IMG/VR virus record: IMGVR_UViG_3300043640_000053
Span: 1-40,630 of that record
DNA: 40,630 nt
From: a virus
Strand: one strand, 5' to 3'
Both the position numbers and the translations under genes were made by a program. Each line of letters opens with the position of its first letter. The first letter of the stretch is position 1. The notes below the pieces were generated by a model that saw only the letters and a list, made by a program, of their open reading frames with translations, was not told the origin of the DNA and ran no database searches. Shown piece after piece: positions 476 through 38,697 of the stretch.

Positions 476-1456
476 ATGCAATTAAGAAAAGCAACCAGGC
501 AGCAGGCGAAAATTCGCCTAGGGCTGTCCGCTACATCAGGCGCAGGGAAAACGTATTCAGCGCTCCTTATCGCCTTCGGGCTATGCGGCGACTACGAAAA
601 AGTAGCGATCATTGACACGGAGAACGGTAGCGCCGACCTGTACGCTCATTTGGGCGGATACAATGTAATTACGTTAACCGCGCCATTCACACCCGAAAAA
701 TATATAGCAGCTATCAAGGTGTGCGAAGACTCTGGCATGTCTGTCATTATCGTAGACAGCATTACGCACGAATGGGAAGAGTTGCTGAAAATATCCGGAG
801 CAATGACCGGCAATTCTTACACAAACTGGTCAAAGATTACACCACGTCACGACGCTTTTATTCAAAGCATTTTACAATCCAAATGTCACGTGTTGACGAC
901 AGTGCGTCGTAAGCAAGATTACGAAATGGGCAAAGACAGCAGCGGTAAAGGAACTGTTACCAAGTTGGGGCTTAAAGAGGTTACCCGTGATGGCTTCGAA
1001 TATGAAGTAACCGTAAATCTTGAATTGGATGTTGCGCATTTTGCAACGTCATCTAAAGATCGTACCGGATTATTTTCAGGTCAACCTCAGTTTATCCCTT
1101 CCATTGAAACCGGAAAATTACTGAAGGCCTGGTGCGAATCGGGAGCCGAACCAATTACGCCTGTAGATCCGCGCCCTGTGTTGCAAATCGCTACGCCTGA
1201 ATTTAATGCTGTTTACGACGCGGTTGTAAACAAGGGATATACGAAAGAACAGGTCGAAATAAAATACCAGGTCGCAGATCCGGTATGGCAGATTATCGCC
1301 GACGCGGTAAACGCAAAAGCAATCGTCGCAACTATACCCGACCCTGCGCCGGCCCCGGTGACTCAGGCGCAGATACATGAAGCCAACGTCGCCTATGTCG
1401 CCCCGGTGATCGCAGCACCGCTAAATGGTCGCGCCGTTAAGCCGCGTCCGTTCTAA
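476..1456 (+). CDS. RecA-like AAA ATPase of phage recombination module (Sak4-like)
   Basis: This 326-residue P-loop ATPase has a Walker A motif ATSGAGKT (residues 19-26) and a Walker B motif VIIVDS (90-95). The layout matches the AAA_24/Sak4-like RecA-core proteins of phages, which are thought to promote single-strand annealing or strand exchange together with SSB. The ATPase core covers about residues 10-220. The rest is a Pro/Ala-rich linker ending in KPRPF. That Pro-Phe end recurs on three other DNA-metabolism proteins here. The neighbours (pentapeptide protein, coiled-coil protein, PD-(D/E)XK nuclease) fit a recombination operon. The ATG at 476 is preceded by an A-rich stretch. P-loop identity is certain; the Sak4-like role is inferred from family and context. 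Confidence 0.8.
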   Translation: MQLRKATRQQAKIRLGLSATSGAGKTYSALLIAFGLCGDYEKVAIIDTENGSADLYAHLGGYNVITLTAPFTPEKYIAAIKVCEDSGMSVIIVDSITHEWEELLKISGAMTGNSYTNWSKITPRHDAFIQSILQSKCHVLTTVRRKQDYEMGKDSSGKGTVTKLGLKEVTRDGFEYEVTVNLELDVAHFATSSKDRTGLFSGQPQFIPSIETGKLLKAWCESGAEPITPVDPRPVLQIATPEFNAVYDAVVNKGYTKEQVEIKYQVADPVWQIIADAVNAKAIVATIPDPAPAPVTQAQIHEANVAYVAPVIAAPLNGRAVKPRPF

Positions 1457-1461
1457 ATAAT

Positions 1462-1544
1462 ACAGCGGCCAACTCGGTAGTGCGGGCAGCAGGGGTAAAT
1501 CCCTGTGGATCAAAGAAGGAGGGATGAAATTTCCCCGCCGCTGT
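1462..1544 (+). ncRNA. Structured RNA candidate, multi-helix junction
   Basis: The gap between the ATPase and the coiled-coil gene can fold into a closed multibranch structure. The closing stem is 8 bp and perfect (ACAGCGGC at 1462-1469 with GCCGCTGT at 1537-1544). Inside are a hairpin CAGGG/CCCTG (1490-1494 with 1501-1505, loop GTAAAT) and a hairpin GGGA/TCCC (1521-1524 with 1532-1535, 7-nt loop). A pyrimidine-rich TTCTTTTT follows at once. The overall size resembles a tRNA, and GGTAG at 1476-1480 resembles a D-loop, but the anticodon-like loop has 6 nt and no good D-stem forms. It could be a degenerate tRNA, a leader element controlling the gene that starts at 1574, or an unknown ncRNA. Confidence 0.4.
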
Positions 1545-1573
1545 TCTTTTTAAACCCAATTAAAATCTTACAC

Positions 1574-2773
1574 ATGTCAAACGAACTACAGATAATACCG
1601 AAAATCGATGATGAAAAATTTGGCAAGCTAATCGAATTGCCGTCTATGTACGAACGGAATTTACTGCGCGCTACTAACGCCAAGGCCTACACGACCCTAC
1701 AGCTTGCCGCGATTAGCCTGGTTGATTACGCTACCGTAAGCGTGGAGTTTATGGAAAAACTGCTAGAACCGGTAGTCGAACTACGGTCTATGTTGGCTGA
1801 AGCGAAAAAAGAAGTCAAAGCCGAACGCGATCCGTACACGCAAAAAATGAGCGAGATAGTATCCATGTTCACCGGGATTGAAAAAGATTTCGACTCGCAG
1901 ATAGATATAGTCGCCGCCATACAAAACAAATGGGAACTGGAAAAAATCCGACGCACTAAACTGAAGGCAGAGCAAGACGCGCTAGATCTTGCGAAAGCCA
2001 CAGCGAGGATTACGATCAAATCCAACTTAAACACAGAGATCACCAGGGCATTTAAAGATCTTCTTTCCGCCGATATAAAGGCTATGAGCGACGCTTATTA
2101 TAAAAAAACAGCAGCCGAATTACCGGGGTACGCCGCTGCTATACAAGAATGGACCCCTGGGTTGGATGAAGCGGATTTTGAAACCCTGCGCGACGCTAAA
2201 ACAATTTCTCATGCCTCTTTTACTTCTGAAGAAATTGCAGTCATACGCAACGAAGTGGCGACGTCCTTGAGAATACCACTACATGAAGACTACCACAGTG
2301 CTATGACCACGGAGCGCGACCGACTGATAGAGCTTGTCCCTTCCCGTATTATAGAGATCAACGAAGGAGATACAGCCGCAGCGACTGCGCGCATAGCAGC
2401 CGAAAGCCTGGAAACCGAACGCCTGTTAAACGAAGCGCTTTCAAATAAACGAGAATCCGCCGCGCTTGAAACGGAAACAGAAAAATTAAACGTCGGGTTT
2501 GAAATCTCAGCTAAGGCCGGGCCTGTCATGACAAGAGCTAAAGGAGCGGTGCAGAAGAAAAAGTACGTTCCGGCATCGCACAAAGCCTTTGTGGCAATCC
2601 TTCAGCAATGGGTAAGCAAAGAAATGAACACACTTACCGTACCTGAACTGGAAAAGAAACTGTCCTTCATGGTCACCGCCGCCAACGCTAGGCTTAACCA
2701 GGGCGAAACCCTGATAGCCGAAGGCTTGACCGTGATAGACGATATTTCTACACGAACAACAAAAGCAAAATGA
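1574..2773 (+). CDS. Coiled-coil protein of recombination module, unknown function
   Basis: The 399-residue product is rich in Lys, Glu and Ala with long predicted helices, notably about residues 60-170 and 270-330, consistent with coiled coil. The chosen start is the ATG at 1574 (MSNELQII). An in-frame GTG at 1505 would run through the structured RNA candidate and add 23 implausible residues. The stop overlaps the next start by ATGA, so translation is coupled to the PD-(D/E)XK nuclease. Position between a RecA-like ATPase and a nuclease suggests a recombination accessory protein, as with other coiled-coil proteins beside phage recombinases. No catalytic motif is visible and the family is not recognised. 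Confidence 0.75.
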   Translation: MSNELQIIPKIDDEKFGKLIELPSMYERNLLRATNAKAYTTLQLAAISLVDYATVSVEFMEKLLEPVVELRSMLAEAKKEVKAERDPYTQKMSEIVSMFTGIEKDFDSQIDIVAAIQNKWELEKIRRTKLKAEQDALDLAKATARITIKSNLNTEITRAFKDLLSADIKAMSDAYYKKTAAELPGYAAAIQEWTPGLDEADFETLRDAKTISHASFTSEEIAVIRNEVATSLRIPLHEDYHSAMTTERDRLIELVPSRIIEINEGDTAAATARIAAESLETERLLNEALSNKRESAALETETEKLNVGFEISAKAGPVMTRAKGAVQKKKYVPASHKAFVAILQQWVSKEMNTLTVPELEKKLSFMVTAANARLNQGETLIAEGLTVIDDISTRTTKAK

Positions 2774-3405
2774 GCGACGAACTGTATTTCGCGCATCCGT
2801 ATACCTCTAATAGTGATTTGTCAAAATTAGTTCCGCGTCCATACAGTTTTAATATTCAGGCAGCTTTTAGTTTCGGTACCCTGGTACATGCTGCGATACT
2901 TCAACCGCACCGGATCAACATAATAAAAAACACGCTGGACGGTAAGCCGGTAGAGCCTACCGCAATGGTCAGGGCGCTTGCGATGAAAGCCGCGTTTATG
3001 CTAGATCAATACTGCGCCGGTTTCCTGAAAAGCTGTAGCGTCGAAGTTGAAATGTATAACGCAAACACCGACTTCGAACACCAGGGCCGGAAATTCAGGA
3101 TTGACACGAAGCGAAAGTATGACATGTTTAATCACGTGGCTGGATATGGAGGCGACATAAAAACAACTGCGGCAATTACGCCGGAAGAATTTCGGGCGTC
3201 AGTCGAAAGTTTCGAGTATCACCGATCGCGGGTCTTTTACGCCAAAGGCTCCGGCGCCACACGCGATATAATAATAGGCATCAGTAAAGTTAACTGCGAG
3301 ATTTTTAAAGTCTTCATGCAGAAGGGAGACCGGCTATGGAAGGCGGGCGAAGATCGCGCAAATGAACTTGCCTGGTTATGGTTTAACGAACATCCGCCAT
3401 TCTAA
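2770..3405 (+). CDS. PD-(D/E)XK nuclease, RecE/exodeoxyribonuclease VIII-like
   Basis: The 211-residue product shows the landmarks of the PDDEXK-like domain found in phage exonucleases (DUF3799/RecE C-terminal type): FGTLVH near residue 35, an acidic residue in VEVEM (91-95), D112 in RIDTK, and the GDIKTT motif (128-133) supplying the catalytic D and K, followed by a helix with Tyr/His. Such enzymes resect double-stranded DNA to single strands for annealing. It is coupled by ATGA to the coiled-coil protein upstream and by a 1-base overlap to the gene downstream. The chain ends in HPPF, one of four Pro-Phe C-termini among DNA-metabolism proteins in this window. Exonuclease polarity cannot be read from sequence. 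Confidence 0.8.
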   Translation: MSDELYFAHPYTSNSDLSKLVPRPYSFNIQAAFSFGTLVHAAILQPHRINIIKNTLDGKPVEPTAMVRALAMKAAFMLDQYCAGFLKSCSVEVEMYNANTDFEHQGRKFRIDTKRKYDMFNHVAGYGGDIKTTAAITPEEFRASVESFEYHRSRVFYAKGSGATRDIIIGISKVNCEIFKVFMQKGDRLWKAGEDRANELAWLWFNEHPPF

Positions 3406-3626
3406 TGACACACGAACAAAAAAAAACGGTTCAACAATTTGTAACCAGGGTTCATAAAATGCGAAAGCTGCAATCCGAATCGCAGGCGTCTAAGCAGGCG
3501 GGCGACCATAATGTAGCGCTTACCAAATGGAACGAGTCCTATCATTACGCCCGCCTCGTGGATGAAACGCTTACCGAAGTAACAGATATTATAAGCTCAC
3601 GCGATCAGCTAATATTAGATTTATGA
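3405..3626 (+). CDS. Small helical protein, unknown
   Basis: The 73-residue product is charged and probably all-helical (two helices with a Gln/Ser/Lys-rich turn). It starts on the last base of the previous stop (TAATG) and overlaps the next gene by ATGA, so it lies inside a translationally coupled chain. No family recognised. Confidence 0.65.
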   Translation: MTHEQKKTVQQFVTRVHKMRKLQSESQASKQAGDHNVALTKWNESYHYARLVDETLTEVTDIISSRDQLILDL

Positions 3627-3946
3627 CAAAGAGATCCGAGTATAATAAAAAGTGGCGTGACGCAAATCCTATGAAGTATTGCTATATAACGCTCCGGGAT
3701 AATTCTAAACGTCGCGGCAAAGTGTTTACGATTTCGTTTGAGTATTTCAAGCGGTTTTGTTACCGTACAAAGTACATTCAGAATAAGGGTCGGCACAGGG
3801 AAAATTATAGCATTGACAGGATCAATAACGAATTAGGATACATCCCAGGAAATATTAAATGCGTTACAGTCGCCTTGAATTCAGCAAAAGGAACTAAGGT
3901 AGTCTCGTTCGATTATTACCGGGAATCTAAATTTAAAGTTATATGA
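3623..3946 (+). CDS. Small HNH-fold-like protein
   Basis: The 107-residue basic protein carries YSIDRINNELGYIPGNI at residues 62-78 followed by KCVT. This matches the beta-beta-alpha core of small phage HNH-like proteins, whose usual form is (H/S)IDRIDNxxGYxxGN(I/C)xxV. D65, R66 and N78 are in place. The usual catalytic His just before the core is not obvious, so it may be a DNA-binding relic, a member of a divergent HNH subfamily, or a nicking enzyme. It sits in an ATGA-coupled chain. Being so small and lacking a second domain, it could be a free-standing homing-type endonuclease, although it is well integrated in the operon. Confidence 0.6.
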   Translation: MTKRSEYNKKWRDANPMKYCYITLRDNSKRRGKVFTISFEYFKRFCYRTKYIQNKGRHRENYSIDRINNELGYIPGNIKCVTVALNSAKGTKVVSFDYYRESKFKVI

Positions 3947-4236
3947 GTCCTACCAGGCAGCGCATAGACGAGATATTCCGGACCGCCTGCGAAATGTTCG
4001 GCGTTGACATGCGCCTGCTAGTAACAAAAAAGAATCCAGGTAGGGCCGCATATAATGCCCGGATCATTTGCATAAAGTCTTTGCGCGACTCTACGAACCT
4101 GGTGTTATCCGATATAGGCAACCTGTTCGATACTGATCATACCTGTATTTGTTATGCACTTAACCGGTACGAAGTTTATTATTCTAACGATCAGTTTTTC
4201 CGGATTGACGCAGATTTTTTTAAAACTCAAATATGA
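3943..4236 (+). CDS. Stand-alone DnaA domain IV-like DNA-binding protein
   Basis: In this 97-residue protein, residues about 50-90 match the C-terminal helix-turn-helix domain of DnaA: DIGNLFDTDHTCICYALNR (57-75) corresponds to the DnaA signature with DHSTV.HA. followed by a basic helix. In DnaA this segment reads the DnaA box. The AAA+ domain is absent, so the protein cannot act as a complete initiator. It may bind host or phage DnaA boxes, interfere with host initiation, or act as a transcription factor. It is ATGA-coupled on both sides. It is also one of the few candidate DNA-binding regulators for the repeated operators described in this window. Domain match is moderately firm; role is inferred. 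Confidence 0.65.
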   Translation: MSPTRQRIDEIFRTACEMFGVDMRLLVTKKNPGRAAYNARIICIKSLRDSTNLVLSDIGNLFDTDHTCICYALNRYEVYYSNDQFFRIDADFFKTQI

Positions 4237-4748
4237 AATTAGACATTACCGGCCTGTACGACATAGGCCCAAAGCATTCAATCAGAACTTTTTCTGGTAT
4301 ATATATTGATCTTGCTTGCCCTACCGAAGACATGATCTACATACAGGATATCGCTCATGCCCTAAGTATGCAACCACGATGGACCGGACACCTTCCTAAA
4401 TTATATTCGGTTGCGCAGCACAGTATAGAGTGTTGTAATATGGCGCATCCGAAAGACAAACTCTCCGCTCTGCTGCATGATGCAAGCGAAGCGTATCTAT
4501 GCGATATCGCTAGTCCGATTAAGTCCCTGCTGTCTAACTATAAAGACATTGAGAATAATCTAATGAATGTTATCGCAAGCAAATTCGGCATAGTATGGCC
4601 CCCGCCTGCTGCGGTTAAAGAAATTGACGCCTATATGCTTGAATGGGAATGGTCGTCAATGGTTTTGCAAAAACAGAACGTAACGTGTTACACACCCGAT
4701 CTAGCTGAAAGAATTTTTTTACGGACGTTTAAATTATTGACACAATGA
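4233..4748 (+). CDS. HD-superfamily phosphohydrolase (YfbR-like nucleotidase)
   Basis: The 171-residue product has the HD-domain metal ligands: H63 in VAQHSIE, H82-D83 in LLHDASEAY, and D132 in KEIDAYMLEWEW. The spacing and the phrase LLHDASEAYLCDI match the YfbR-like phage branch, which in bacteria removes phosphate from deoxynucleoside 5'-monophosphates. In a phage it would adjust the nucleotide pool or act on a signalling nucleotide. It lies in the coupled DNA-metabolism chain between a DnaA-like protein and a small unknown protein. Fold and metal site are clear; the true substrate is not. Confidence 0.82.
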   Translation: MKLDITGLYDIGPKHSIRTFSGIYIDLACPTEDMIYIQDIAHALSMQPRWTGHLPKLYSVAQHSIECCNMAHPKDKLSALLHDASEAYLCDIASPIKSLLSNYKDIENNLMNVIASKFGIVWPPPAAVKEIDAYMLEWEWSSMVLQKQNVTCYTPDLAERIFLRTFKLLTQ

Positions 4749-4981
4749 ATAAAACAGAAAGAGAAGAGTTAAACGCATTCCCGTACGAGCTTGATAATGC
4801 CATTATTGAAAAATTCGGCGCTGATACCTGCCCTGAAAGCACGTACAGCCTTTTTACCGACAAGCATATTACTGTATTCGAAGCCAAAGGGGCGTTAAGA
4901 AAAAGAATACAGGATTTTATAGACGGGTATATTCAGGGAAACATCGAATTAAGGAGACGCTTAGACTTACTCAATGCTTAA
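4745..4981 (+). CDS. Small acidic protein, unknown
   Basis: The 78-residue product is acidic and helical. It is coupled by ATGA to the HD hydrolase and overlaps the helicase start by 8 bases. The family is not recognised. Tight placement before the helicase suggests a helper or regulator, but nothing in the sequence shows it. Confidence 0.6.
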   Translation: MNKTEREELNAFPYELDNAIIEKFGADTCPESTYSLFTDKHITVFEAKGALRKRIQDFIDGYIQGNIELRRRLDLLNA

Positions 4982-6515
4982 ACAACCTTTCCCATATCAG
5001 CATAAGCAAATAGACGGCATATCCGAAGCGTTCGGGGCTGGTCGCAAGTGCGTGGTTGCTCAACTTCCAACAGGAGGCGGCAAAACGGTAGAGTTTGCGT
5101 GTATGTGTAACCGTTACATAACATCTCAGCCAAAGAATGTACTAATTCTTGTACACAGGGCTGAATTAATGCAGCAAGCGTACAAAACACTGTATGAGTG
5201 GTTCGGCATAATCGCGGAGCGTGTCGGAGCCAACAATAAGAAGCCGGGTAATGCGCGGGTGTATATCGCGATGGTCGAAACGGCAAATAACAGGCTTAAA
5301 AAATCACCAAACTATTTTCCAAATATCGGCCTGGTAATAATTGACGAATGTCATTTAGGAAATTTTACCAAGATCATGCCGTGTTATGTTGAATCGTTTA
5401 TCTGCGGTTACACGGCCACGGCAAAGACTGCCAGTAAAAAACACCCGCTAAAGGAGTTTTACGAAACGATTATCGTAGGCCCGCAGATCGAAGAACTTAT
5501 AAAACTTGGCAACCTCACGCCAAACAAAACATATCGCGCTATCGGCGTGGACCGTGACGATCTTGCGGTCCGAGCAGGAGAATTTGACACGGAACAAATG
5601 TCTGCGCTCTATTCAAAGACCAAGCACGTCAAGAACACTGTTGAAGGGTATGAAAAACATTGCAAAGGAACAAAAACCCTCGTCTTTAACTGTTCTGTCG
5701 AGCATTCAAAACTTGTCGACGCGGCATTTCGCGAAGCCGGATACAACTCAAGGCATATCGACGGCAACGAAAAGCCTGAAAAGCGCGCCGCGATACTTGA
5801 ATGGTTTAAGAACACGCCAGACGCAATCCTGAATAATATAGGCATTCTTACAACCGGCTTCGACGAGCCATCCGTACTATCTGTGATCGTAAACAAGGCT
5901 ACTCTTAGCTTGCCCCTGTGGCTTCAAATGTGCGGGCGCGGTAGCCGGACATTCCCTGGTAAACTGTTCTTCACCATTGTAGATATGGGCGGAAACACTA
6001 AGGCGCATCTTGATTGGTGCGACTATAGAGATTGGGAATGGGAATTCAATAACCCTGGTAAACCTAAATTAACGGGCGGCGGAATCGGTGCAGTAACGGA
6101 GTGCGTCGAATGCGGCGCATACATACCGGCCAGCACGCGCGTGTGCAAATTCTGCGACGCAGATCAGCCAGCGCCGATACAGACCTATGATTCAAAGATG
6201 GTAGAGTTTGAGCTTATCACTAAAGCCATCGACGTACCGGCTGTGATCGTCGCCACTCAGGACCATAACCCGTACTACGCGCTGCACCAGATCAAAGAAA
6301 ATATCGTATCGGGCGCAAGGTCCAAACTGGTAAATATCGACGACGCGGCAGCGTATCGGTTACTCGAATCTTATCAAGAGAAAGTCGCAGAGTGGTGCAA
6401 GGTGACGGGTAAAAATTATAACCAGTGGCACAAATCAACTACCGGAACCTGGTTTTTAGAAGAACTCGACAAGGTTTTTGGGTGGAAGCCGCCCGCGCTA
6501 AGTATTGCTATATGA
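4974..6515 (+). CDS. Superfamily 2 DEAD/DEAH-box helicase with zinc finger
   Basis: The 513-residue helicase shows the ordered SF2 motifs: I PTGGGKT (32-38), Ia LVHRAELM (59-66), II DECH (124-127), III TAT (147-149), V TTGFDEP (293-299) and VI QxxGRxxR (318-325). A four-Cys zinc ribbon (C377, C380, C391, C394) follows and may contact DNA. About 100 helical residues end the chain. SF2 enzymes of this form in phages unwind or remodel DNA in replication or recombination, comparable to UvsW-like or DnaB-replacing helicases. It overlaps the upstream gene by 8 bases and the downstream small gene by ATGA. Helicase family is certain; substrate and polarity are unknown. Confidence 0.9.
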   Translation: MLKQPFPYQHKQIDGISEAFGAGRKCVVAQLPTGGGKTVEFACMCNRYITSQPKNVLILVHRAELMQQAYKTLYEWFGIIAERVGANNKKPGNARVYIAMVETANNRLKKSPNYFPNIGLVIIDECHLGNFTKIMPCYVESFICGYTATAKTASKKHPLKEFYETIIVGPQIEELIKLGNLTPNKTYRAIGVDRDDLAVRAGEFDTEQMSALYSKTKHVKNTVEGYEKHCKGTKTLVFNCSVEHSKLVDAAFREAGYNSRHIDGNEKPEKRAAILEWFKNTPDAILNNIGILTTGFDEPSVLSVIVNKATLSLPLWLQMCGRGSRTFPGKLFFTIVDMGGNTKAHLDWCDYRDWEWEFNNPGKPKLTGGGIGAVTECVECGAYIPASTRVCKFCDADQPAPIQTYDSKMVEFELITKAIDVPAVIVATQDHNPYYALHQIKENIVSGARSKLVNIDDAAAYRLLESYQEKVAEWCKVTGKNYNQWHKSTTGTWFLEELDKVFGWKPPALSIAI

Positions 6516-6682
6516 AAAAATTAATAAGGCAGAAAATCAATATGTTAATCTGCGAGAAGTTTAATACAATTATCGAGATTTCGTTTTCCCCTGGTATCGA
6601 AAAAACGATATACGGGCAAGCTTTGGCCGCTAGAATTGCCTTCATAGACCTATATGTCTGCATTCTTTCCGGCTTTGTTTAA
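6512..6682 (+). CDS. Small hydrophobic protein, unknown
   Basis: The 56-residue product starts at an ATG overlapping the helicase stop (ATGA), the same coupling used throughout this operon, which is the main reason to accept it. The N-terminus is basic (MKKLIRQK) and the C-terminal half is hydrophobic (about residues 38-56). It is the last gene before the promoter at 6703-6734. No family recognised. Confidence 0.45.
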   Translation: MKKLIRQKINMLICEKFNTIIEISFSPGIEKTIYGQALAARIAFIDLYVCILSGFV

Positions 6683-6702
6683 CCCTTTTTTTGCCTTTTA
6701 AG

Positions 6703-6734
6703 TTCGTAACTTACAATAATTGTTTGTATCTTTA
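6703..6734 (+). promoter_or_regulatory. Promoter with overlapping inverted-repeat operator (site A)
   Basis: A -33-like TTCG (6703-6706) is followed after 20 nt by TATCTTTA (6727-6734), close to the Bacteroidetes -7 element TAnnTTTG. The imperfect inverted repeat TACAAT-AATTG-TTTGTA (6712-6728) covers the spacer and the start of the -7 box, as in the other six sites of this window. The methyltransferase start is 11 nt downstream. Confidence 0.65.
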
Positions 6735-6744
6735 TCGCTTCCCC

Positions 6745-7599
6745 ATGACGCACGCTTCATTATTTTCAGGTATCGGTGGTTTTGATTTAGCCGCTAAGTG
6801 GATGGGGTGGAAAAATATCTTCCATTGCGAAATAGAAAAGTTCGGACAGAAAATTTTAAAACAACATTTTCCGGAATCCTTTTTATATGAAGATATTACC
6901 AAATCAGACTTTAACGACCGTAAAGGAACTGTCGATGTACTTACAGGAGGTTTTCCCTGCCAACCATTCAGCGTTTCCGGAAAGCAAAAAGGAACAGCAG
7001 ACAGTAGGCATCTTTGGCCGGAAATGCTGCGGGCCGTTAGAGAAATCGCCCCTACTTACGTCGTGGGCGAAAACGTTTACGGTCTTGTTAGTTGGTCGGG
7101 GGGATTGGTTTTCGACCAGGTGCAAGTTGATTTGGAAAATGAAGGTTACCAAGTCGTCCCGTTTCTTATTCCAGCTTGCGGCGTCGGCGCTCCACACAGA
7201 AGATACAGAATTTGGTTTGTTGCCTACTCCGGACGCCGGGTTAGCGACCGGTGGAAAGATAAACAAAGCAACGACGTCCATCAAGGGAAAAACTCCGGAC
7301 GGATACAAGAGGAAAATATCCATAATAGACTACATAAGCCGGGGTTTAATCCCGACACCAACGACGAGGGATTGGAAATCGTGCAACGCGTCCCAGGAGA
7401 CGATGAACAGGAATGCCCGACCGCTGAACGAAACGGTTACAGGTGGGAAGACTGGCCAGCTCAACCCCCGCTTTGTGGAAGAAATGATGGGTTACCCGAT
7501 AGGGTGGACAGAATTAAAGCATTAGGAAACGCTATCGTTCCACAGGTTGCGTACCAAATTTTCAAAGCGATTCAATTACATGGCCTCACCGATTATTAG
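6745..7599 (+). CDS. dcm: DNA (cytosine-5-)-methyltransferase
   Basis: The 284-residue product transfers a methyl group from SAM to C5 of cytosine in DNA. Motifs are in family order: I LFSGIGGFD (about 6-14, SAM binding), IV GGFPCQPFS with catalytic Cys72, VI GEN (108-110), VIII GAPHRRYRIW (about 148-157), then a variable target-recognition region, and motif X ALGNAIVPQ (about 259-267). The start at 6745 places the Met just before motif I, as is normal, directly behind promoter A. No restriction endonuclease is adjacent, so this is an orphan enzyme likely to protect phage DNA. A second conserved reading frame (6887-7525) lies inside it. It overlaps the primase-helicase start by 20 bases. Confidence 0.93.
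   Translation: MTHASLFSGIGGFDLAAKWMGWKNIFHCEIEKFGQKILKQHFPESFLYEDITKSDFNDRKGTVDVLTGGFPCQPFSVSGKQKGTADSRHLWPEMLRAVREIAPTYVVGENVYGLVSWSGGLVFDQVQVDLENEGYQVVPFLIPACGVGAPHRRYRIWFVAYSGRRVSDRWKDKQSNDVHQGKNSGRIQEENIHNRLHKPGFNPDTNDEGLEIVQRVPGDDEQECPTAERNGYRWEDWPAQPPLCGRNDGLPDRVDRIKALGNAIVPQVAYQIFKAIQLHGLTDY
6887..7525 (+). CDS. Overprinted protein inside the methyltransferase gene (LLPTP family)
   Basis: A 212-codon frame runs in another phase within the methyltransferase gene. Its sequence looks like a real, recurring phage protein: CKLIWKMK, FLFQLAASALHTEDTEFG, then LLPTPDA and LIPTPTTRDWKS, and near the end LNPRFVEEMMGYPIGWTEL. I recall this LPTP...NPRFVEWMMGFPxGWTDL pattern from many phage proteins annotated as methyltransferase-associated or hypothetical, often overlapping a dcm gene. 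Both frames therefore appear to be under protein-level selection. The ATG at 6887 is the longest in-frame start; the real one may differ. Function is unknown; a link to the methyltransferase is inferred from the invariant overlap. Confidence 0.55.
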   Translation: MKILPNQTLTTVKELSMYLQEVFPANHSAFPESKKEQQTVGIFGRKCCGPLEKSPLLTSWAKTFTVLLVGRGDWFSTRCKLIWKMKVTKSSRFLFQLAASALHTEDTEFGLLPTPDAGLATGGKINKATTSIKGKTPDGYKRKISIIDYISRGLIPTPTTRDWKSCNASQETMNRNARPLNETVTGGKTGQLNPRFVEEMMGYPIGWTELKH

Positions 7600-9748
7600 T
7601 TTATTCCCGCATATCCGTGATGCAAACAACGGCACGGATATGCCGTTCGACGTGTTCTTGCATAATATAAAATCCGGCGCCTGGTCCGATCATGTGTTGG
7701 ATGTATATAAATACCGCAGCGATCCCCTCGCGATGCGCAAGGCAAAAGAGTCTGTGCCATACGTAACGATCTCCGGAAAGTTTAAGACGCGTAAAAATGA
7801 AGGCCTGGAACATCATTCCGGTTTTCTTGCTATTGATATCGACGAAGTGGATCCACGCGAAACCAAGGAGATAATCTGCTGCGATAAACATGTGTACGCC
7901 GCGTTCGCTTCGATATCGGGCGGCGGGTTGTGTGTGATTTTTAAAATCAACCCGGCAAAGCACCTTGAGTCATTCGAAGGCTTGCAGCAGTATTTATACG
8001 ACAGTTATAAGATTATTGTTGACCCATCTTGCAAGGATGTTTCCAGGCCGCGTTATGTCAGCTATGATGCAGAGATGTATCTGAACGAACGCGCGGAAAA
8101 ATTTGTCAGTTACGTAAAGAAAGATAAGGCGCTTAATCCGACCAAAGTCCCGAATGTAGTTTTTGTCGAAGACGATTTTAATATGGTCCTAGGCGAAATC
8201 GCAGAGCGCGGCATTGATATAACCGGCTCTTATCAAACGTGGCTCCGCATTGGGTTTTCTATAGCCGACAAGTTCGGAGAACAAGGCCGCGAAGCTTACC
8301 ACGCAATAAGCCGATACTCGACAACATATCTGCCAAAGACCTGCGACCGGCAATACGACAACTGTTTGAAGTCGAAAAACTCCGGCGTAAACATCGCTAC
8401 TTTTTATTTTATCGCGAAGGCTGCGGGCCTGTGTATTATCAGTGAACGGACACGTAAAGTTTCCGCCATCGCTGACGCTGCACGCCGGGCGCATTCAGAT
8501 AAAAAAGCTGCTGTTAAAGAAGCTACCGAACAGGGTTTCGAAAACGCTACAGACATAATCAACCAGGTTTTTGACAACTCGATAGACATACCGGACGCGT
8601 CAGAAATTGAATCGCACGAGTTTTGGCTGAAAGAACACTACAGCCTGCGCAGGAACGAACTGACTAGGTACATCGAGTCCAGCGGTGAACCGTTACAGAA
8701 AAAAGATTTCAATACCATTTGGGTTGCAGCCCGAAAAGTCTTCGACAAAATCAGTTACCAGGATCTTGAACGCCTGATTGATTCCGACAGCACCCCGACG
8801 TACAACCCGCTGAAGGATTTTATTCACGAACAAAGTCACCGAACGCCGACAGGCTGCATTGAGCAGGTTTTTCGCAGCATTGAAACCGATACCGGAGACG
8901 ATGACTTCGCAGTAACCTTTGGTACGAAATGGTTCGTAGGAATGATCGCATCCATTTACGGCAAACATTCCCCGCTTATGCTGGTGTTCACCGGCCCGCA
9001 GAATTCCGGCAAGACTGAGTTTTGGCGGCGCCTGTTGCCGGTCCCTCTGCTGCATTATTATGCAGAATCCAAGCTCGATCAGGATAAGGACAGCGAGATC
9101 CTTATGACGCAGAAGCTCATTATCATGAATGATGAAATGGGCGGAGCCACGGCCAAAGATGAAAAAAGGATCAAGGAACTTACCAGCAAGCAGGTTTTTA
9201 GCCTCAGGGAACCATATGGGCGCGGTAATGTGGACCTGGTTCGGTTGGCGATGCTTGGCGCTACAGCTAATTTAACGGCCATTCTAGGCGATAACACCGG
9301 CAACAGGCGTATTATCCCGATAAACATGCTATCGTATGATTTTGACGCTTATAACCGCGTAGACAAGACGGATATGTTTATGGAGGCCTACCATTTATAC
9401 AAGGCTGGTTTTCCGTGGCATCTGTCCAAACAGGAGATAGCCATGCTGAATGGATCTACATCGGAATTTGATAAGGTGAATATTGAGCGTGAGCTTCTTA
9501 CCCTGTATTACGAACTGCCAGCGGAAGGGGCCGGGACCTGGTTAACCGCCACTGAGATCAAAACCCGGCTTATGAGGGATAACAAACACGTCCCGAACGC
9601 CACAAAGTTAGGACAGGAACTTAAGAACCTTGGTTTTGTCCGTGGTGGCTTCAGGCGTAATGGACAGCCTCAATATGGGTATAAGGTGCAGGAAACGAAT
9701 ACGCTATTCGGTACTGATCTTCCGGTAAAACAACCCCTTCCCTTCTAA
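7580..9748 (+). CDS. Primase-helicase, BT4734-like N-terminus with VirE-type helicase
   Basis: The 722-residue protein begins with a BT4734/VirE-N-like primase domain containing GFLAIDIDEVD (81-91) and the ISGGGLCVIFKI segment. A PriCT-like linker follows (TWLRIGFSIADKFG to the Cys/Lys-rich turn). The C-terminal VirE-type superfamily 3-like helicase has Walker A GPQNSGKT (472-479), Walker B KLIIMNDE (512-519) and a winged-helix tail. Such fusions prime and unwind DNA at a phage or mobile-element origin. The repeat cluster just downstream (9751-10019) supports an initiation role. The chosen start (MASPIISL) overlaps the methyltransferase by 20 bases. The C-terminus is KQPLPF, one of the four Pro-Phe tips. 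Confidence 0.85.
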   Translation: MASPIISLFPHIRDANNGTDMPFDVFLHNIKSGAWSDHVLDVYKYRSDPLAMRKAKESVPYVTISGKFKTRKNEGLEHHSGFLAIDIDEVDPRETKEIICCDKHVYAAFASISGGGLCVIFKINPAKHLESFEGLQQYLYDSYKIIVDPSCKDVSRPRYVSYDAEMYLNERAEKFVSYVKKDKALNPTKVPNVVFVEDDFNMVLGEIAERGIDITGSYQTWLRIGFSIADKFGEQGREAYHAISRYSTTYLPKTCDRQYDNCLKSKNSGVNIATFYFIAKAAGLCIISERTRKVSAIADAARRAHSDKKAAVKEATEQGFENATDIINQVFDNSIDIPDASEIESHEFWLKEHYSLRRNELTRYIESSGEPLQKKDFNTIWVAARKVFDKISYQDLERLIDSDSTPTYNPLKDFIHEQSHRTPTGCIEQVFRSIETDTGDDDFAVTFGTKWFVGMIASIYGKHSPLMLVFTGPQNSGKTEFWRRLLPVPLLHYYAESKLDQDKDSEILMTQKLIIMNDEMGGATAKDEKRIKELTSKQVFSLREPYGRGNVDLVRLAMLGATANLTAILGDNTGNRRIIPINMLSYDFDAYNRVDKTDMFMEAYHLYKAGFPWHLSKQEIAMLNGSTSEFDKVNIERELLTLYYELPAEGAGTWLTATEIKTRLMRDNKHVPNATKLGQELKNLGFVRGGFRRNGQPQYGYKVQETNTLFGTDLPVKQPLPF

Positions 9749-9750
9749 GT

Positions 9751-10019
9751 GTTGTAAGCGTTGTAAGCTGTAGTAAGCATAATTATCGGACTGCTTACTA
9801 CCAGGGATATTTGGTTTTCAATCTGTTATATCTCTTTTTATTAATGTAGTAAGCGTAGTAAGCATATATCACACACACGTAACGAGGCAATGTTTTACAT
9901 GACGTGAAAATATTTTATTCATTTCCTATAAACTTCCGGAAATGCCTTACTACAGCTTACTACACTATCTGTAAAATCCACATAACGCATTGATTTAGTA
10001 TTATTTAAGTGTAGTAAGC
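9751..10019 (+). other. Iteron-like repeat cluster, candidate replication origin
   Basis: The 310-bp non-coding gap holds nine copies of a 9-bp element, consensus G(T/A)(A/T)GTAAGC, mostly GTAGTAAGC. Direct copies: 9751-9759, 9760-9768, 9770-9778, 9846-9854, 9855-9863, 10011-10019. Inverted copies: 9793-9801, 9945-9953 (one mismatch), 9955-9963. Copies are spaced 9-10 bp within groups, nearly one helical turn, as in plasmid and phage iterons bound by an initiator. The stretches between groups (about 9802-9845, 9864-9944 and 9964-10010) are A+T-rich and could act as unwinding regions. The cluster lies immediately behind the primase-helicase gene. Confidence 0.7.
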
Positions 10020-10058
10020 ACGAATATTTTCAGACACCAAAAGCAAATTGATACCAAA

Positions 10059-10439
10059 ATGGGAATTGACTCAATATCGGAATTACAGCTTCAGGCGCAG
10101 TGTTACCAGTGGGCTTACGGCACTTACCCTCAGATCCGAGGCCTGTTGTGGCACGTTCCAAACGAAACCAAGCCGTTCCCTGGTGAACCGAAGCACGACT
10201 ATTATATCCGGCTGAACAAGATGAAGGCTGCGGGCCTGGTTAAGGGCGTCTCGGACCTGCACTTCTATTGGCGCAACCGGCTATACTGTTTTGAGCTGAA
10301 GGTTGATTACAACAAAGAGTCTACTGAGCAAATCGCGTTCGGCGCCCGTATCCAAATGGAGGGCGGGTACTACGACAGCATCCGTACACTGGAACAATTC
10401 AAAGCCATCTTCACCAAAATCATAACCGCACACCCATGA
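10059..10439 (+). CDS. VRR-NUC domain nuclease
   Basis: The 126-residue product is a compact VRR-NUC protein of the PD-(D/E)XK superfamily. E8 in ISELQLQ opens the domain; GVSDLHF (63-69) supplies the catalytic Asp; FELK (78-81) supplies Glu and Lys; Q-x-x-FGARIQMEGG (91-103) closes it. Stand-alone phage VRR-NUC enzymes are thought to cut branched DNA such as Holliday junctions, which would resolve replication or recombination intermediates before packaging. It starts 40 bp downstream of the last iteron and is coupled by ATGA to the next small gene. Fold and active site are clear. Confidence 0.87.
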   Translation: MGIDSISELQLQAQCYQWAYGTYPQIRGLLWHVPNETKPFPGEPKHDYYIRLNKMKAAGLVKGVSDLHFYWRNRLYCFELKVDYNKESTEQIAFGARIQMEGGYYDSIRTLEQFKAIFTKIITAHP

Positions 10440-10588
10440 CGCCATTCTGCATATATAAGGGTCGGACGATCTATTGCGAGAATGGCCGCTACCTGGTAGG
10501 ACTACGAGACTTTACGTACATAAAGGACGCTTTCGAGTATGTCGACTCATTTACGAACTTTGCAAATAATATTCTTAAAAGTTTGTAA
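10436..10588 (+). CDS. Small protein coupled to VRR-NUC nuclease, unknown
   Basis: The 50-residue product begins MTPFCIYKGRTIYC and ends FANNILKSL. It starts at an ATG overlapping the nuclease stop (ATGA). The sequence looks like a small beta-then-helix domain with two Cys (residues 5 and 14). Its stop codon lies within promoter B. No family recognised. Confidence 0.55.
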   Translation: MTPFCIYKGRTIYCENGRYLVGLRDFTYIKDAFEYVDSFTNFANNILKSL

Positions 10589-10612
10589 TTACAAAGAATG
10601 TTTGTATGTTTG
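10582..10612 (+). promoter_or_regulatory. Promoter with overlapping operator (site B)
   Basis: This is the best match in the window to the Bacteroidetes sigma-A consensus: TTTG (10582-10585), 19 nt, TATGTTTG (10605-10612). The perfect inverted repeat TACAAA-GAATG-TTTGTA (10590-10606) fills the spacer and overlaps the -7 box. The next start is at 10634. Confidence 0.78.
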
Positions 10613-10633
10613 CAATACCAAACACGACAAACG

Positions 10634-10828
10634 ATGAACAGTATTAACGGAGTAACAGCGGGCGACATTTCCAGGATAATGCGCCACATTGAAAAGACGA
10701 TCAGGTTTTACAACCTCAAGTACAACTACGATATTTCTTTAGGGACCAAAAAAGAAATCTCGCAATACGAATCCCTGATTAAGCAATGGGACAAACTGAA
10801 AGTAACCCGCAACAAACTGAACGCATAA
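10634..10828 (+). CDS. Small helical protein, unknown
   Basis: The 64-residue product (MNSINGVTAGDI...) is charged and predicted helical, with a central KTIRFYNLKYNYDI segment and a basic end. The start at 10634 is preferred over an in-frame ATG at 10598 because the latter lies inside promoter B. It opens a run of very small genes. No family recognised. Confidence 0.6.
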   Translation: MNSINGVTAGDISRIMRHIEKTIRFYNLKYNYDISLGTKKEISQYESLIKQWDKLKVTRNKLNA

Positions 10829-10839
10829 ACCCCTACCCT

Positions 10840-10905
10840 ATGTCAACCTACGAAATCAGAGAAGCAATGTCCTGGATCGTCTTAACCATAAAACCCAAAG
10901 CATGA
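10840..10905 (+). CDS. Possible 21-residue peptide
   Basis: A 22-codon frame (MSTYEIREAMSWIV then LTIKPKA) starts 12 nt after the previous stop. Its stop overlaps the next start as ATGA, the pattern of real genes here. It could be a true micropeptide or a coupling/leader peptide. Its length gives little statistical support. Confidence 0.35.
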   Translation: MSTYEIREAMSWIVLTIKPKA

Positions 10906-11099
10906 CTTATCAAGCAAAGCACACAACGAAGAAAGCGGCAATCACCGACGCTAAAAAGCAGTCGGCTGAAAACCGGGACACCATATACAGCATCATTGCC
11001 GCAGAAGGCGTCTACTTTGTCGAGGAAGGGACGGCGTTCGTTAGGAATAATGAAAAGCTGGTAGGCGAATATCTCATAGGCATGAAACTAAAACCATAA
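10902..11099 (+). CDS. Small protein, unknown
   Basis: The 65-residue product has a Lys-rich N-terminal half (QAKHTTKKAAITDAKKQ) and a beta-like second half with GVYFVEEGTAFVRNNEKLVGEY. It sits between two equally small genes in the unit read from promoter B. No family recognised; such clusters of small phage genes often act on the host, but nothing specific is visible. Confidence 0.6.
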   Translation: MTYQAKHTTKKAAITDAKKQSAENRDTIYSIIAAEGVYFVEEGTAFVRNNEKLVGEYLIGMKLKP

Positions 11100-11103
11100 T
11101 ACC

Positions 11104-11283
11104 ATGACAAATTCCGAATTAGCTGCAAAGCTGTTAACTCTGGACCCAAATGGTCCGGCTACCGTCAGTATCAAAGCTGACACAAAAGACACTCAGGCGA
11201 TCTTACCGGTCCTGTGGATCGCGAAAGGATCGCTATACGTAAAGCTGCCTGAGATGCAGGCGATCGTAAGCGCAGTAAAATAA
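11104..11283 (+). CDS. Small protein, unknown
   Basis: The 59-residue product starts MTNSELAAKLLTLDP, has a beta-rich middle and ends LPEMQAIVSAVK. It lies 4 nt after the previous stop and 19 nt before the terminator stem at 11303, so it closes this short unit. No family recognised. Confidence 0.55.
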   Translation: MTNSELAAKLLTLDPNGPATVSIKADTKDTQAILPVLWIAKGSLYVKLPEMQAIVSAVK

Positions 11284-11302
11284 TTATCAGGACGGTTTGG
11301 TT

Positions 11303-11331
11303 AAAGGGGTAAGGTTTCTTGCCCCTTTTTT
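11303..11331 (+). terminator. Rho-independent terminator
   Basis: The stem AAAGGGGTAAG / CTTGCCCCTTT has one T-G wobble and a GTTT loop. The right arm runs into six T (11326-11331). It ends the small-gene unit and precedes promoter C by about 15 nt. Confidence 0.85.
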
Positions 11332-11344
11332 ATGCAAACTAAAT

Positions 11345-11375
11345 TTCGTAATTACAAATTAAGTTTGTAATATTG
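11345..11375 (+). promoter_or_regulatory. Promoter with overlapping operator (site C)
   Basis: TTCG (11345-11348), 19 nt, TAATATTG (11368-11375). It carries the perfect inverted repeat TACAAA-TTAAG-TTTGTA (11353-11369), extended to TTACAAA...TTTGTAA. The next ATG is at 11380, so the transcript leader is very short. Confidence 0.7.
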
Positions 11376-11379
11376 TTAA

Positions 11380-11541
11380 ATGAAAGCAATTTACGGCCAA
11401 CAATTCAACGATTCTAATACCATCGTGGTATCCAACGGCGCCTACTCTGTATGTTTCCTTCACCGAACCGAAGCTATAGAGTTTACATCAGGAATGAATA
11501 TCGTCGCCCTATTCCGCATCAAACTAAAACCAAAGATATGA
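11380..11541 (+). CDS. Small protein, unknown
   Basis: The 53-residue product begins MKAIYGQQFNDSNT. It starts 4 nt after the -7 box of promoter C, so it is read from a nearly leaderless transcript unless initiation is further upstream. It overlaps the next gene by ATGA. No family recognised. Confidence 0.55.
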   Translation: MKAIYGQQFNDSNTIVVSNGAYSVCFLHRTEAIEFTSGMNIVALFRIKLKPKI

Positions 11542-11963
11542 TAAAAAGAAGATGTTTTTTAACTTTCGAAGCCGCTTTCGAATTTGCCCAAACCCTGCGT
11601 GTTGACTTCAAATTGGATCATGCTTACGGATCTTTAGATGGCTTACTTTATCAAGTGGAATACAACGATGTTAATTATGGGCGCGCTGATATCAGGGTCG
11701 GTATTGTTGGACGTATTTGCGATATCCCAGACAATCAGATTCAGAAATACAGAGAAGCCAACTACCGTTTGCGCGCAGAACTGCGCAAGGTTACAGCAGA
11801 TAACGACGCTCACAGAAAATACGCAGGCGAATTGATTGTTAAGAATATCGGCTTAAGGAATACTATCACAAAGATAGGCACTGAGATTATCATGCGCAAC
11901 GAGTACGGCCAACGTCGCAGTGCCACGATCAACAACATTTTCAAAATCATTACTCAAAATTAA
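11538..11963 (+). CDS. Unknown protein with coiled-coil middle
   Basis: The 141-residue product begins MIKRRCFLTFEAAFEF. The start at 11538 is chosen because it overlaps the previous stop by ATGA; an earlier in-frame ATG at 11451 lies inside the previous gene. A beta-rich first half is followed by a basic helix about residues 70-110 with heptad character (KYREANYRLRAELRKV). No family recognised. Confidence 0.6.
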   Translation: MIKRRCFLTFEAAFEFAQTLRVDFKLDHAYGSLDGLLYQVEYNDVNYGRADIRVGIVGRICDIPDNQIQKYREANYRLRAELRKVTADNDAHRKYAGELIVKNIGLRNTITKIGTEIIMRNEYGQRRSATINNIFKIITQN

Positions 11964-11974
11964 AACCCCTCATT

Positions 11975-12148
11975 ATGTTTTACATGGTCATCGGAAACAC
12001 GGAACACACAAAAGACATATTTGGTATGCACGGCTTCGACAACGGCACCCTGGTAGAAGAAGGCGGTAGCGGTGGTTACTATACGGACGGTACTGGTGTA
12101 GGCTGGTTCGTGGGCAAAGGCGACTTATTTTTCATCGGCAAAATTTAA
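11975..12148 (+). CDS. Small Gly-rich protein, unknown
   Basis: The 57-residue acidic product is Gly-rich (EEGGSGGYYTDGTGVGW) and ends GDLFFIGKI, suggesting a tiny all-beta domain. It lies 5 nt upstream of the SSB gene and would be co-transcribed with it. No family recognised. Confidence 0.55.
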   Translation: MFYMVIGNTEHTKDIFGMHGFDNGTLVEEGGSGGYYTDGTGVGWFVGKGDLFFIGKI

Positions 12149-12153
12149 ACACA

Positions 12154-12549
12154 ATGATAAAAATGCAAGTGATCGGCCATCTTGGAAAAGATGCAGTCGT
12201 AAATTTAGTGAACGGAAAGAACGTTATTAATTTTAACGTCGCACACTCGGAAAAATATACCAACGCGGCCGGTGAAAAGGTAGAAAAAACAGTATGGGTT
12301 GATTGCGCCTACTGGACCGATCGCACCAATATCGCGCCGTACCTGAAGAAAGGTACGCAGGTCCACGCAGACGGTCAGCCCGAAGTAAGGCAATATCAAA
12401 AACAGGATGGCACATACGGCTGTAGTCTGACACTCCGCGTGAACACGGTACAGTTATTAAGTTCAGCGAACGGCGATAACCAGGCACAGGCACAATCTGC
12501 CGCAATTGCTCCGCCTGTAGCGACAGCCGCAGCGGCCTTGCCCTTCTAA
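12154..12549 (+). CDS. ssb: Single-stranded DNA-binding protein
   Basis: The 131-residue SSB begins with a canonical OB-fold (about 1-105): MIKMQVIGHLGKDA, VINFNVAHSEKY, the conserved WVDCAYW, then YLKKGTQVHADGQPEV and a closing LRVNTVQLL strand. A Gln/Ala linker leads to the tip AAALPF. Bacterial SSBs end in an acidic tip such as DDIPF that recruits partner enzymes; here the Pro-Phe is kept but the acidic residues are replaced by Ala. The protein would coat phage single strands and cooperate with the Sak4-like ATPase. A strong terminator follows at 12579. Confidence 0.93.
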   Translation: MIKMQVIGHLGKDAVVNLVNGKNVINFNVAHSEKYTNAAGEKVEKTVWVDCAYWTDRTNIAPYLKKGTQVHADGQPEVRQYQKQDGTYGCSLTLRVNTVQLLSSANGDNQAQAQSAAIAPPVATAAAALPF

Positions 12550-38157: not shown

Positions 38158-38696
38158 GGCAAATTATTCCAAAAGCTCACGACGTAGAAAGGTTTTTCCC
38201 TTATCTGGCCGACGCAATGGAAAAGTATCAAATCAATTCGCCGCGAAGGATCGGCGCTTTTATTTCTCAGATAGGAGAAGAAAGCTGCTGCTTTCAAGCT
38301 ACAGTAGAGTACGCGTCTGGAAAAGAATACGAAGGCCGTGACGACCTTGGAAATACGCAACCGGGCGACGGTGTGAAATTCAAGGGCAGGGGTTTAATTC
38401 AGGTTACCGGGCGAACCGGGTACGCCTCTGTATCGCGTAAGATATTCGGAGACGACAGGCTAGTAGATACGCCAACCCTCATGGGTAACCCGGATCTTGC
38501 CGCGCTGTCCGCTGGTATATTTTGGGACGGTAAAATGATAAACAACGTATGTGATAATCCCGAAACCTGGATAAAACCCGGTCCGCATCAGTATACGAAA
38601 TTTCAGTGGATCACGATACTAGTTAACGGTGGACTTAACGGTTACGCCGAACGCCTTTCAAATTACAACAGAGCAAAAACAGTTCTCAACTTCTGA
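38136..38696 (+). CDS. Endolysin, glycoside hydrolase family 19
   Basis: The 186-residue product is a single-domain GH19 enzyme (chitinase/lysozyme-like) that cuts the sugar backbone of peptidoglycan. It shows the first catalytic region FISQIGEESCCF (43-53, E48/E49), the EYEGRDDLGNTQPGDG loop, the FKGRGLIQVTGR signature (82-93) and the final ILVNGGLNGYAERL. Related phage enzymes usually have HES where this one has EES. No signal peptide is seen, so it needs a holin for export, which fits the neighbouring membrane proteins. It starts inside the previous gene and ends 1 nt before the phosphoesterase. Confidence 0.9.
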   Translation: MVTPAQIRQIIPKAHDVERFFPYLADAMEKYQINSPRRIGAFISQIGEESCCFQATVEYASGKEYEGRDDLGNTQPGDGVKFKGRGLIQVTGRTGYASVSRKIFGDDRLVDTPTLMGNPDLAALSAGIFWDGKMINNVCDNPETWIKPGPHQYTKFQWITILVNGGLNGYAERLSNYNRAKTVLNF

Positions 38697-38697
38697 T

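Follow-up and report, generated by a model that had tools for sequence, protein, structure and literature searches.

Bacterial single-stranded DNA-binding protein (SSB) ends in Pro-Phe, a docking tip, and docking onto this tip is a central organising device of genome maintenance. The 40.6-kb stretch analysed here (IMG/VR virus record IMGVR_UViG_3300043640_000053, hereafter the window) raises the question of what the same ending does on other proteins: its SSB, a RecA/Rad51-like ATPase, a RecE/ExoVIII-like exonuclease and a primase-helicase all stop directly after Pro-Phe (PF). Because it comes from an IMG/VR virus record, the window has no flanking host genome. From sequence comparisons and predicted structures, we propose that the four ends are probably docking motifs of the SSB-tip type, which would connect the enzymes of recombination and priming to one shared receptor or to a small set of receptors.

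Results

Pro-Phe ends in the window

Open reading frames (ORFs) of at least 40 aa were called mechanically by a greedy procedure, without ribosome-site checks, which gave 67 in the window. Exactly four of them have PF directly before the stop, and all four encode DNA-metabolism proteins. The ends reported by the first-pass annotation all read as claimed; the last five residues are KPRPF (stop at 1456), EHPPF (3405), QPLPF (9748) and AALPF (12549). It had also stated that no structural gene of the window ends in PF; this holds, and it extends to 146 distinct virion homologues, none of which ends in PF and nine of which end in Phe. These homologues came from 58 seeds, 32 annotated as virion proteins and 26 chosen by their position in the late region of the window. 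The Pro codons at the tips of the ATPase, nuclease, primase-helicase and SSB are CCG, CCA, CCC and CCC, so the four tips do not come from copies of a single DNA element.

Within the proteins of the data set, the PF dipeptide occurs at a rate of 0.00175. At this rate, 0.12 PF ends are expected in the window, and the probability of at least four among 67 is ~7e-6, that of the three non-SSB ends among 66 being ~2.4e-4. With the C-terminal PF rate observed in subclusters other than SSB, RecT and primase (0.98%, a background itself raised by real tips), these probabilities become 0.0046 and 0.028. Among 350 loci, most of them partial and some overlapping, none has more PF ends than the window with its four; L022, L033 and L049 follow with three each. 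The excess over chance and the absence from virion proteins form a solid observation, and it is confirmed that the PF ends of the four proteins exceed chance.

A near-identity DNA search with the first 14 kb of the window returned no match among phage records. One syntenic relative with the same module is L022, a 43.6-kb viral contig that was found again as L030, L031, L199, L342 and L430. Its ATPase (65% identical to that of the window) ends SKRPF, its nuclease (43%) NPPF and its SSB ESLPF, the tips of the ATPase and nuclease being kept although the adjoining residues have diverged. Repeats of the L022 and L006 contigs (L030, L031, L199 and L342; L280), as well as L001 and L191, were dropped before counting.

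Terminal Phe across protein families

Terminal Phe recurs on the SSB, annealing protein, primase-helicase and DnaB of related phages. Across 2304 protein clusters from the window and loci up to L190, counted after removal of proteins under 80 aa and of those with an X close to the terminus, no C-terminal dipeptide was more over-represented than PF: it was seen 44 times, with 4.3 expected from internal PF and 7.1 from end-residue frequencies. A larger family scan covered 5538 distinct proteins in 3974 subclusters, primase-helicases being subclustered at 60% identity. Subclusters mostly ending in Phe made up 8% of the background, 23 of 23 among RecT-like proteins, 17 of 18 among DUF3127 SSBs, 10 of 11 for SSB, 9 of 9 for phrog_24909, 14 of 23 for primase-helicases, 5 of 7 for DnaB helicases and 4 of 5 in an endonuclease family; two families of unknown function, one of 118-120 aa (5/5) and another (4/4), were also high. 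Protein by protein, Phe ends 18/23 SSBs, 33/35 DUF3127 SSBs and 28/28 members of phrog_24909. All four subclusters of a DNA-repair exonuclease family, which includes the window ORF at 38629-39786, end in Phe as well, as THLF or TYIF and never PF; this Phe is presumably part of a folded end. At the level of families, these counts support what appears to be a shared tip.

Terminal Phe was absent from the same-operon controls: 0/62 distinct SF2 helicases, 0/55 VRR nucleases and 0/71 copies of hyp400, a ~400-aa protein described below. The window holds its own tipless internal control, a VRR-NUC-type nuclease at 10059..10439 (phrog_824, 6e-23; phrog_93 endonuclease, 1.7e-4; on the + strand, like the four tip-bearing genes, hyp400 and the SF2 helicase gene). 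Four annotated phages (269 ORFs) contain six PF ends, on two SSBs, one primase, one endonuclease and two unknown proteins, and P12024S has none. Two unannotated phage proteins, phi46:1 gp27 (L194:21148-21843) and an FCL-2 protein (L197:38411-39364), end EDDVPF and DDNDVPF, respectively; neither has a Pfam match at E 0.001. In a 106-aa family of unknown function (e.g. L129:8306-8626), six of six end in PF.

The ATPase and the exonuclease

The ATPase gene (476..1456) matches Pfam AAA_24 (1.2e-14) and, among PHROG families, phrog_1366 of unknown function (3.6e-69), the match to the Sak4-like phrog_124 being far weaker (3e-4). Its predicted structure (mean predicted local distance difference test score, pLDDT, of 87) consists of a core (residues 1-222), a helical part (~241-285) and a low-confidence tail (~286-326), in which residues 311-326 fall below 50. 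The best solved folds by E-value are human RAD51 paralogs and RecA, with a template modelling (TM) score of only ~0.4. The protein is best assigned as a RecA/Rad51-like ATPase in a phage recombination module, and the slot that gene order gives it makes it a candidate annealing protein. Its tip, KPRPF, occupies 1439..1453 (AAG CCG CGT CCG TTC TAA).

For the ATPase we took the top 80 out of 365 viral relatives, likewise the top 80 out of 142 from genome contigs, and 30 loci from 52 genomes with a match. These 52 were among 394 genomes of the family to which L108 belongs; L108 itself, which the genome scan yielded, is a contig with the title Chitinophagaceae bacterium. Sequences shorter than 250 aa were dropped from the counts, and those longer than 450 aa were also left out of the tree. 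Only three of the 170 distinct ATPases examined end in PF, each as RPF: those of the window, L022 and L108 (AARPF). On a FastTree tree they form one clade, with all three members tipped, and the PF end arose by one change. Distant ATPase matches occur in 409 phage records, and the one looked at for a tip, L190, has no PF. An Asn-Gly element lies within the last 15 residues (e.g. L361-L389) of 78 of the 170 ATPases, against a crude expectation of 15; for the L108 family, 27 of 31 genomic ORFs have it. Five genomes (L128:8674-9036, L155, L162, L168 and L184) encode a member of the 118-120-aa family 1-2 kb upstream of their ATPase gene, and four of these five proteins end GFPF or GMPF.

The exonuclease gene (2770..3405) encodes a PD-(D/E)XK protein matching Pfam DUF3799 (4e-6) and PHROG exonuclease VIII (8.8e-14). 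Its model (pLDDT 95) has E. coli RecE (3h4r) as best solved fold, with E 1.4e-8 and a TM score of ~0.6, and the protein is predicted to have the RecE nuclease fold. The tip, HPPF (3391..3402), reaches just four residues past the last helix (residues 188-207), and its last residue has a pLDDT of 66. The homologues comprised the top 80 out of 239 viral relatives and four others, 64 of them distinct; apart from those ending in PF, one further homologue ends in Phe.

The annealing-protein slot and hyp400

Between the ATPase and the exonuclease lies hyp400 (1574..2773, in an ORF that opens at 1505), a candidate tip receptor; other examples are L022:1419-2612 and L188:2212-3408. When five members were searched against Pfam, PHROG and NCBIfam, no match passed a curated cut-off or reached an E-value below 0.003. 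The order ATPase, hyp400, ExoVIII in the window corresponds to RecT, a homologous ~400-aa protein and ExoVIII in the Bacteroides phage BKO1-TP3. Of 83 hyp400 loci, often cut, 67 contain ExoVIII together with an annealing protein, be it RecT or ATPase; 15 contain one of the two and one contains neither.

RecT proteins in hyp400 loci have an aromatic end in 58 of 59 distinct cases (56 Phe and two Trp), and in a later scan, partly of the same phages, all 23 hyp400 loci with a called RecT showed Phe or Trp. ATPases beside hyp400 end in RPF in 3/3 cases, those with no hyp400 found in 0/167, many of the latter judged on short flanks; L108/L360 is counted as beside hyp400, its frame following the ATPase being cut by the contig end and matching at 2e-114. 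One genome of the L108 family carries, in order, RecT (NEPF), a DUF3127 SSB (QLPF), hyp400 and ExoVIII. A search with Pfam family PF03837 in 296 genomes of that family's phylum found eight RecTs. Two are accompanied by hyp400 and end EGW and PEF; the other six, with no hyp400 within ~1.2 kb downstream, end APF, PGF, REF, PGY, PNF and KEKL, so five of the six are aromatic (the PNF-ending protein did not reach E 0.001 as RecT on rescan). We have accordingly downgraded hyp400 as the sole reason for RecT tips. Non-aromatic ends occur on E. coli RecT (NSEE), lambda Bet (KVAA) and the FCL-2 RecT (NGNK).

RecT tails (L188:1237-2193 and relatives) often contain a second element, like SAGVT[VI][DN]P, ~10-20 residues before the aromatic tip; [VI][TV][VI] is present in 36/59 tails, compared with a background of 3%, and [VI][DN]P in 22/59, compared with 7%. 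By eye only, the ATPase tails of L022 (AGVDPAT) and L108 (AVNPAS) resemble them.

The primase-helicase

The BT4734/VapE-type primase-helicase gene (7580..9748, in an ORF that opens at 7547) matches Pfam VapE-like (1.1e-30), BT4734-like_N and PriCT_2, as well as the DNA primase family phrog_15962. Its tip QPLPF (9731..9745; CAA CCC CTT CCC TTC TAA) is placed beyond the last conserved alignment block. The family sample consisted mostly of the best 80 of 336 viral relatives, window included; 78 of 83 distinct matches remained once rows shorter than 500 aa were dropped, and one second copy was removed for the tree (77 rows). PF ends 26 of the 78, another residue followed by Phe (DDVF, GLAF and others) ends 31, and 21 lack the Phe. 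Over the last ten residues, 40 of the 57 Phe-ending proteins are net acidic. An SSB-like gene is present in 21 of the 57 Phe-ending primase loci, and its product ends in Phe in all 21.

In L312, L315 and L318, SSBs ending DDLGF or DDLEF, without Pro, adjoin primase-helicases ending DVF; this is suggestive of a possible co-change, but these primases are alike. One phage contig, L353, carries two primase-helicase homologues on opposite strands (7995-10160 and 10285-12183).

The SSB and the acidity of the tips

The SSB gene (12154..12549) matches Pfam SSB (1.5e-16) and phrog_44. Its tip AALPF (12532..12546; GCG GCC TTG CCC TTC TAA) terminates what reads as a low-complexity tail, and a PF or Phe tip is usual in the SSB family. 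Acidic residues before the SSB tip normally add affinity. The first-pass annotation held that all four tips lack them, which is nearly so: the last ten residues contain none in the ATPase and the SSB, and one each in the nuclease and the primase-helicase. It had also seen in their absence the possibility of a distinct pocket, for which this absence is poor evidence. We sampled the 30 best-scoring SSB-family matches, paralogues included, from 25 genomes of the L108 family (Chitinophagaceae), which is the likely host family as taken only from L108 and the other best genome-scan matches. LPF ends 18 of these 30 proteins, and in 15 of the 18 no more than one of the six final residues is acidic. 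If the host belongs to that family, weakly acidic tips may therefore be normal there.

At its 5' end (3-452), the record opens within a pentapeptide-repeat-like protein.

Discussion

The distribution of these ends points to a shared docking code on phage DNA machinery. In the reading we favour, the motif would consist of the last Phe and the free carboxyl group that it bears, in most cases with Pro in front, and each tip would dock into a pocket that accepts Phe and carboxylate. SSB-coated phage DNA, the RecA-like ATPase, the RecE-like exonuclease and the primase-helicase would then share and compete for one receptor or a few, and such a shared receptor would couple end resection, annealing and priming. 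The ATPase tip would be presented on the tail that the model leaves disordered and the SSB tip on its low-complexity tail, those of the nuclease and the primase-helicase projecting directly beyond the part that is folded or conserved. Since none of the phage genes goes with the tips in every stretch examined, these stretches being partial, the likeliest receptor is a host protein that interacts with SSB, which also best fits how widely the tips are spread; an extra, module-specific receptor for the annealing protein, such as hyp400, is possible. One could also imagine a code of exchangeable aromatic tips at the C-termini of Bacteroidota phage proteins. Under it, the unrelated RecT and RecA-like ATPase would each need a tip to work with hyp400 and the RecE-like exonuclease, while primase-helicases, DnaB and SSBs would be wired through similar tips to a single receptor or a few, hyp400 maybe among them. 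This wider scheme is conceivable, and we regard it as doubtful.

Several observations weigh against common docking. The pattern was noticed before its probability was computed, which makes the window P values post hoc, and the loci were picked around tip-bearing families, so the absolute rates are not general. The first-pass annotation supposed that the tip had spread over replisome and recombinase. This stands for the ATPase, the nuclease and the SSB, whose tips are kept in the nearest syntenic relative, and the tip recurs beyond this phage; the primase-helicase of L022, however, ends VISRGVVR and is tipless. Conservation among homologues is likewise divided: PF is usual in SSBs and frequent in primase-helicases, but it is rare in ATPases and is found in only 2/64 distinct nucleases, those of the window and L022. 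The three ATPase tips share a single origin and are not three independent events, and the ATPase tip is basic, with three Arg or Lys in the last ten residues. On the tree of 77 primase-helicases, terminal Phe changed at least ten times, and the SSBs of phages with a tipless primase are still tipped (6/6 end in Phe). The window tips lack the usual acidity. Finally, the idea that PF is confined to DNA metabolism survives only as a concentration there. Outside the SSB-like, RecT, primase-helicase, ATPase and ExoVIII families, 37 subclusters contain a PF end, many of them unknown; those annotated include DnaB helicases, other primases, endonucleases, a KilA-N-like regulator (our own reading of a PHROG transcriptional-regulator match), a nucleoside deoxyribosyltransferase and an HsdM-type methylase family (e.g. 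L131:15557-17128) in which 4/4 end in PF.

Some of these points would fit another account, in which the SSB tip is usual for its family and the other three PF ends are a coincidence or an accident of lineage. The missing primase tip of L022, the rarity of the nuclease tip, the P of ~0.03 for three ends at the observed non-SSB C-terminal rate and the PF ends of some unrelated proteins all agree with it. We nevertheless consider it quite improbable, given the strong excess at the family level, the PF-free virion proteins and the persistence of the ATPase and nuclease tips next to diverged residues. Each tip might instead work on its own protein, in the same molecule or from one copy to another, in self-assembly or autoinhibition of DNA binding, with no shared receptor. 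E. coli SSB offers a parallel, as its tail weakly contacts the protein's own DNA site (a report cited in the accessible text of PMC5928155), and the basic ATPase tip is unlike that of SSB. However, two unrelated annealing-protein folds bear aromatic tips in the same module, and the SSB-like proteins at Phe-ending primase loci all end in Phe, which makes purely self-acting tips very unlikely.

The other alternatives place the receptor on the phage. Under one of them, hyp400 would bind the aromatic tip of any annealing protein in its slot and bridge it to the exonuclease, the SSB and primase tips binding elsewhere. The RPF ends of the adjoining ATPases, set against none where no hyp400 was found, the near-universal aromatic ends of the adjoining RecTs in both scans and the RecT-SSB-hyp400-ExoVIII arrangement in a genome of the L108 family speak for it. 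Yet most RecTs with no hyp400 found are aromatic all the same, the tipped ATPases are one clade, 56/57 Phe-ending primase loci show no hyp400 in the examined stretch and 2/3 primases with hyp400 are tipless; overall, we think this proposal unlikely. Still less probable is a hub formed by the tipless SF2 helicase of the phage (4974..6515), acting like E. coli RadD. RadD is its best solved match (6jde/7r7j, E=2.8e-18), and the gene sits among the tip-bearing genes; according to the accessible text of PMC10238739, RadD has a hydrophobic pocket for the SSB tip, with Arg21, Arg49 and Arg145 around it. In the alignment, though, Arg21 falls on Gly21 and Arg49 on Pro53, with Lys54 adjacent, and Arg145 lies outside. 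Moreover, no SF2 gene was found in 29/57 Phe-ending primase loci, some of them short stretches, while 18/21 tipless ones have it. With the pocket arginines unaligned and SF2 commoner in tipless-primase loci, we downgraded it as a general hub.

Docking of the four tips to a common receptor or a small set, which we continue to regard as probable, has partial counterparts in known systems. The window tips share with the bacterial SSB C-terminal (SSB-Ct) tip the terminal Pro-Phe with its free carboxylate and the setting in DNA metabolism, a likeness that rests on sequence; unlike there, the annealing-slot ATPase, the exonuclease and the primase-helicase are also tipped, and the acidity is mostly missing. 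Phage T7 has Phe-ended tails on both its SSB (gp2.5, EDGDF) and its primase-helicase (gp4, NDTDF), as the window has PF on both, and mymlan6-1 shows the same T7-type pairing (SSB DSGLPF, primase NNNEVPF). The tails of T7 gp4 bind basic patches of the phage polymerase, as the accessible text of PMC12593628 describes, whereas none of the 20 proteins of the window that were scanned was recognisable as a polymerase. The window also differs in having PF and not DF, little acidity and tips that extend to recombination proteins; the acidic stretch of SSB-Ct-type or T7-type tails is absent from its tips. In HK620, as far as the accessible text of PMC5928155 goes, the SSB tail NDYPPF is required for Sak4 to bind SSB-covered DNA. 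There too a Sak4-like ATPase meets an SSB with a PF tail that matters, but the tip is on SSB and is received by Sak4, whereas the window ATPase also carries a tip of its own. The Bacteroides RecT-ExoVIII modules, such as that of BKO1-TP3, have the same order of annealing protein, hyp400 and ExoVIII and an aromatic end on the annealing protein; their RecT often has an acidic end of the DDTF or DDVF type, in contrast to the basic RPF of the RecA-like ATPase.

A literature search (titles and abstracts) on tips, T7, RecT and primase tails found no description of a single Bacteroidota phage in which several proteins carry such tips. The SSB tip and the T7-type tails are known; what we would add is their extension to annealing proteins and primase-helicases, together with the predicted docking. 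T7 provides a precedent for tails of the same kind on the SSB and primase-helicase of one phage. If our reading is true, these phages would assemble replication and recombination via one short, portable motif, and the tips would offer a direct route to the receptors as well as a simple candidate rule for how an annealing protein is matched to its exonuclease partner.

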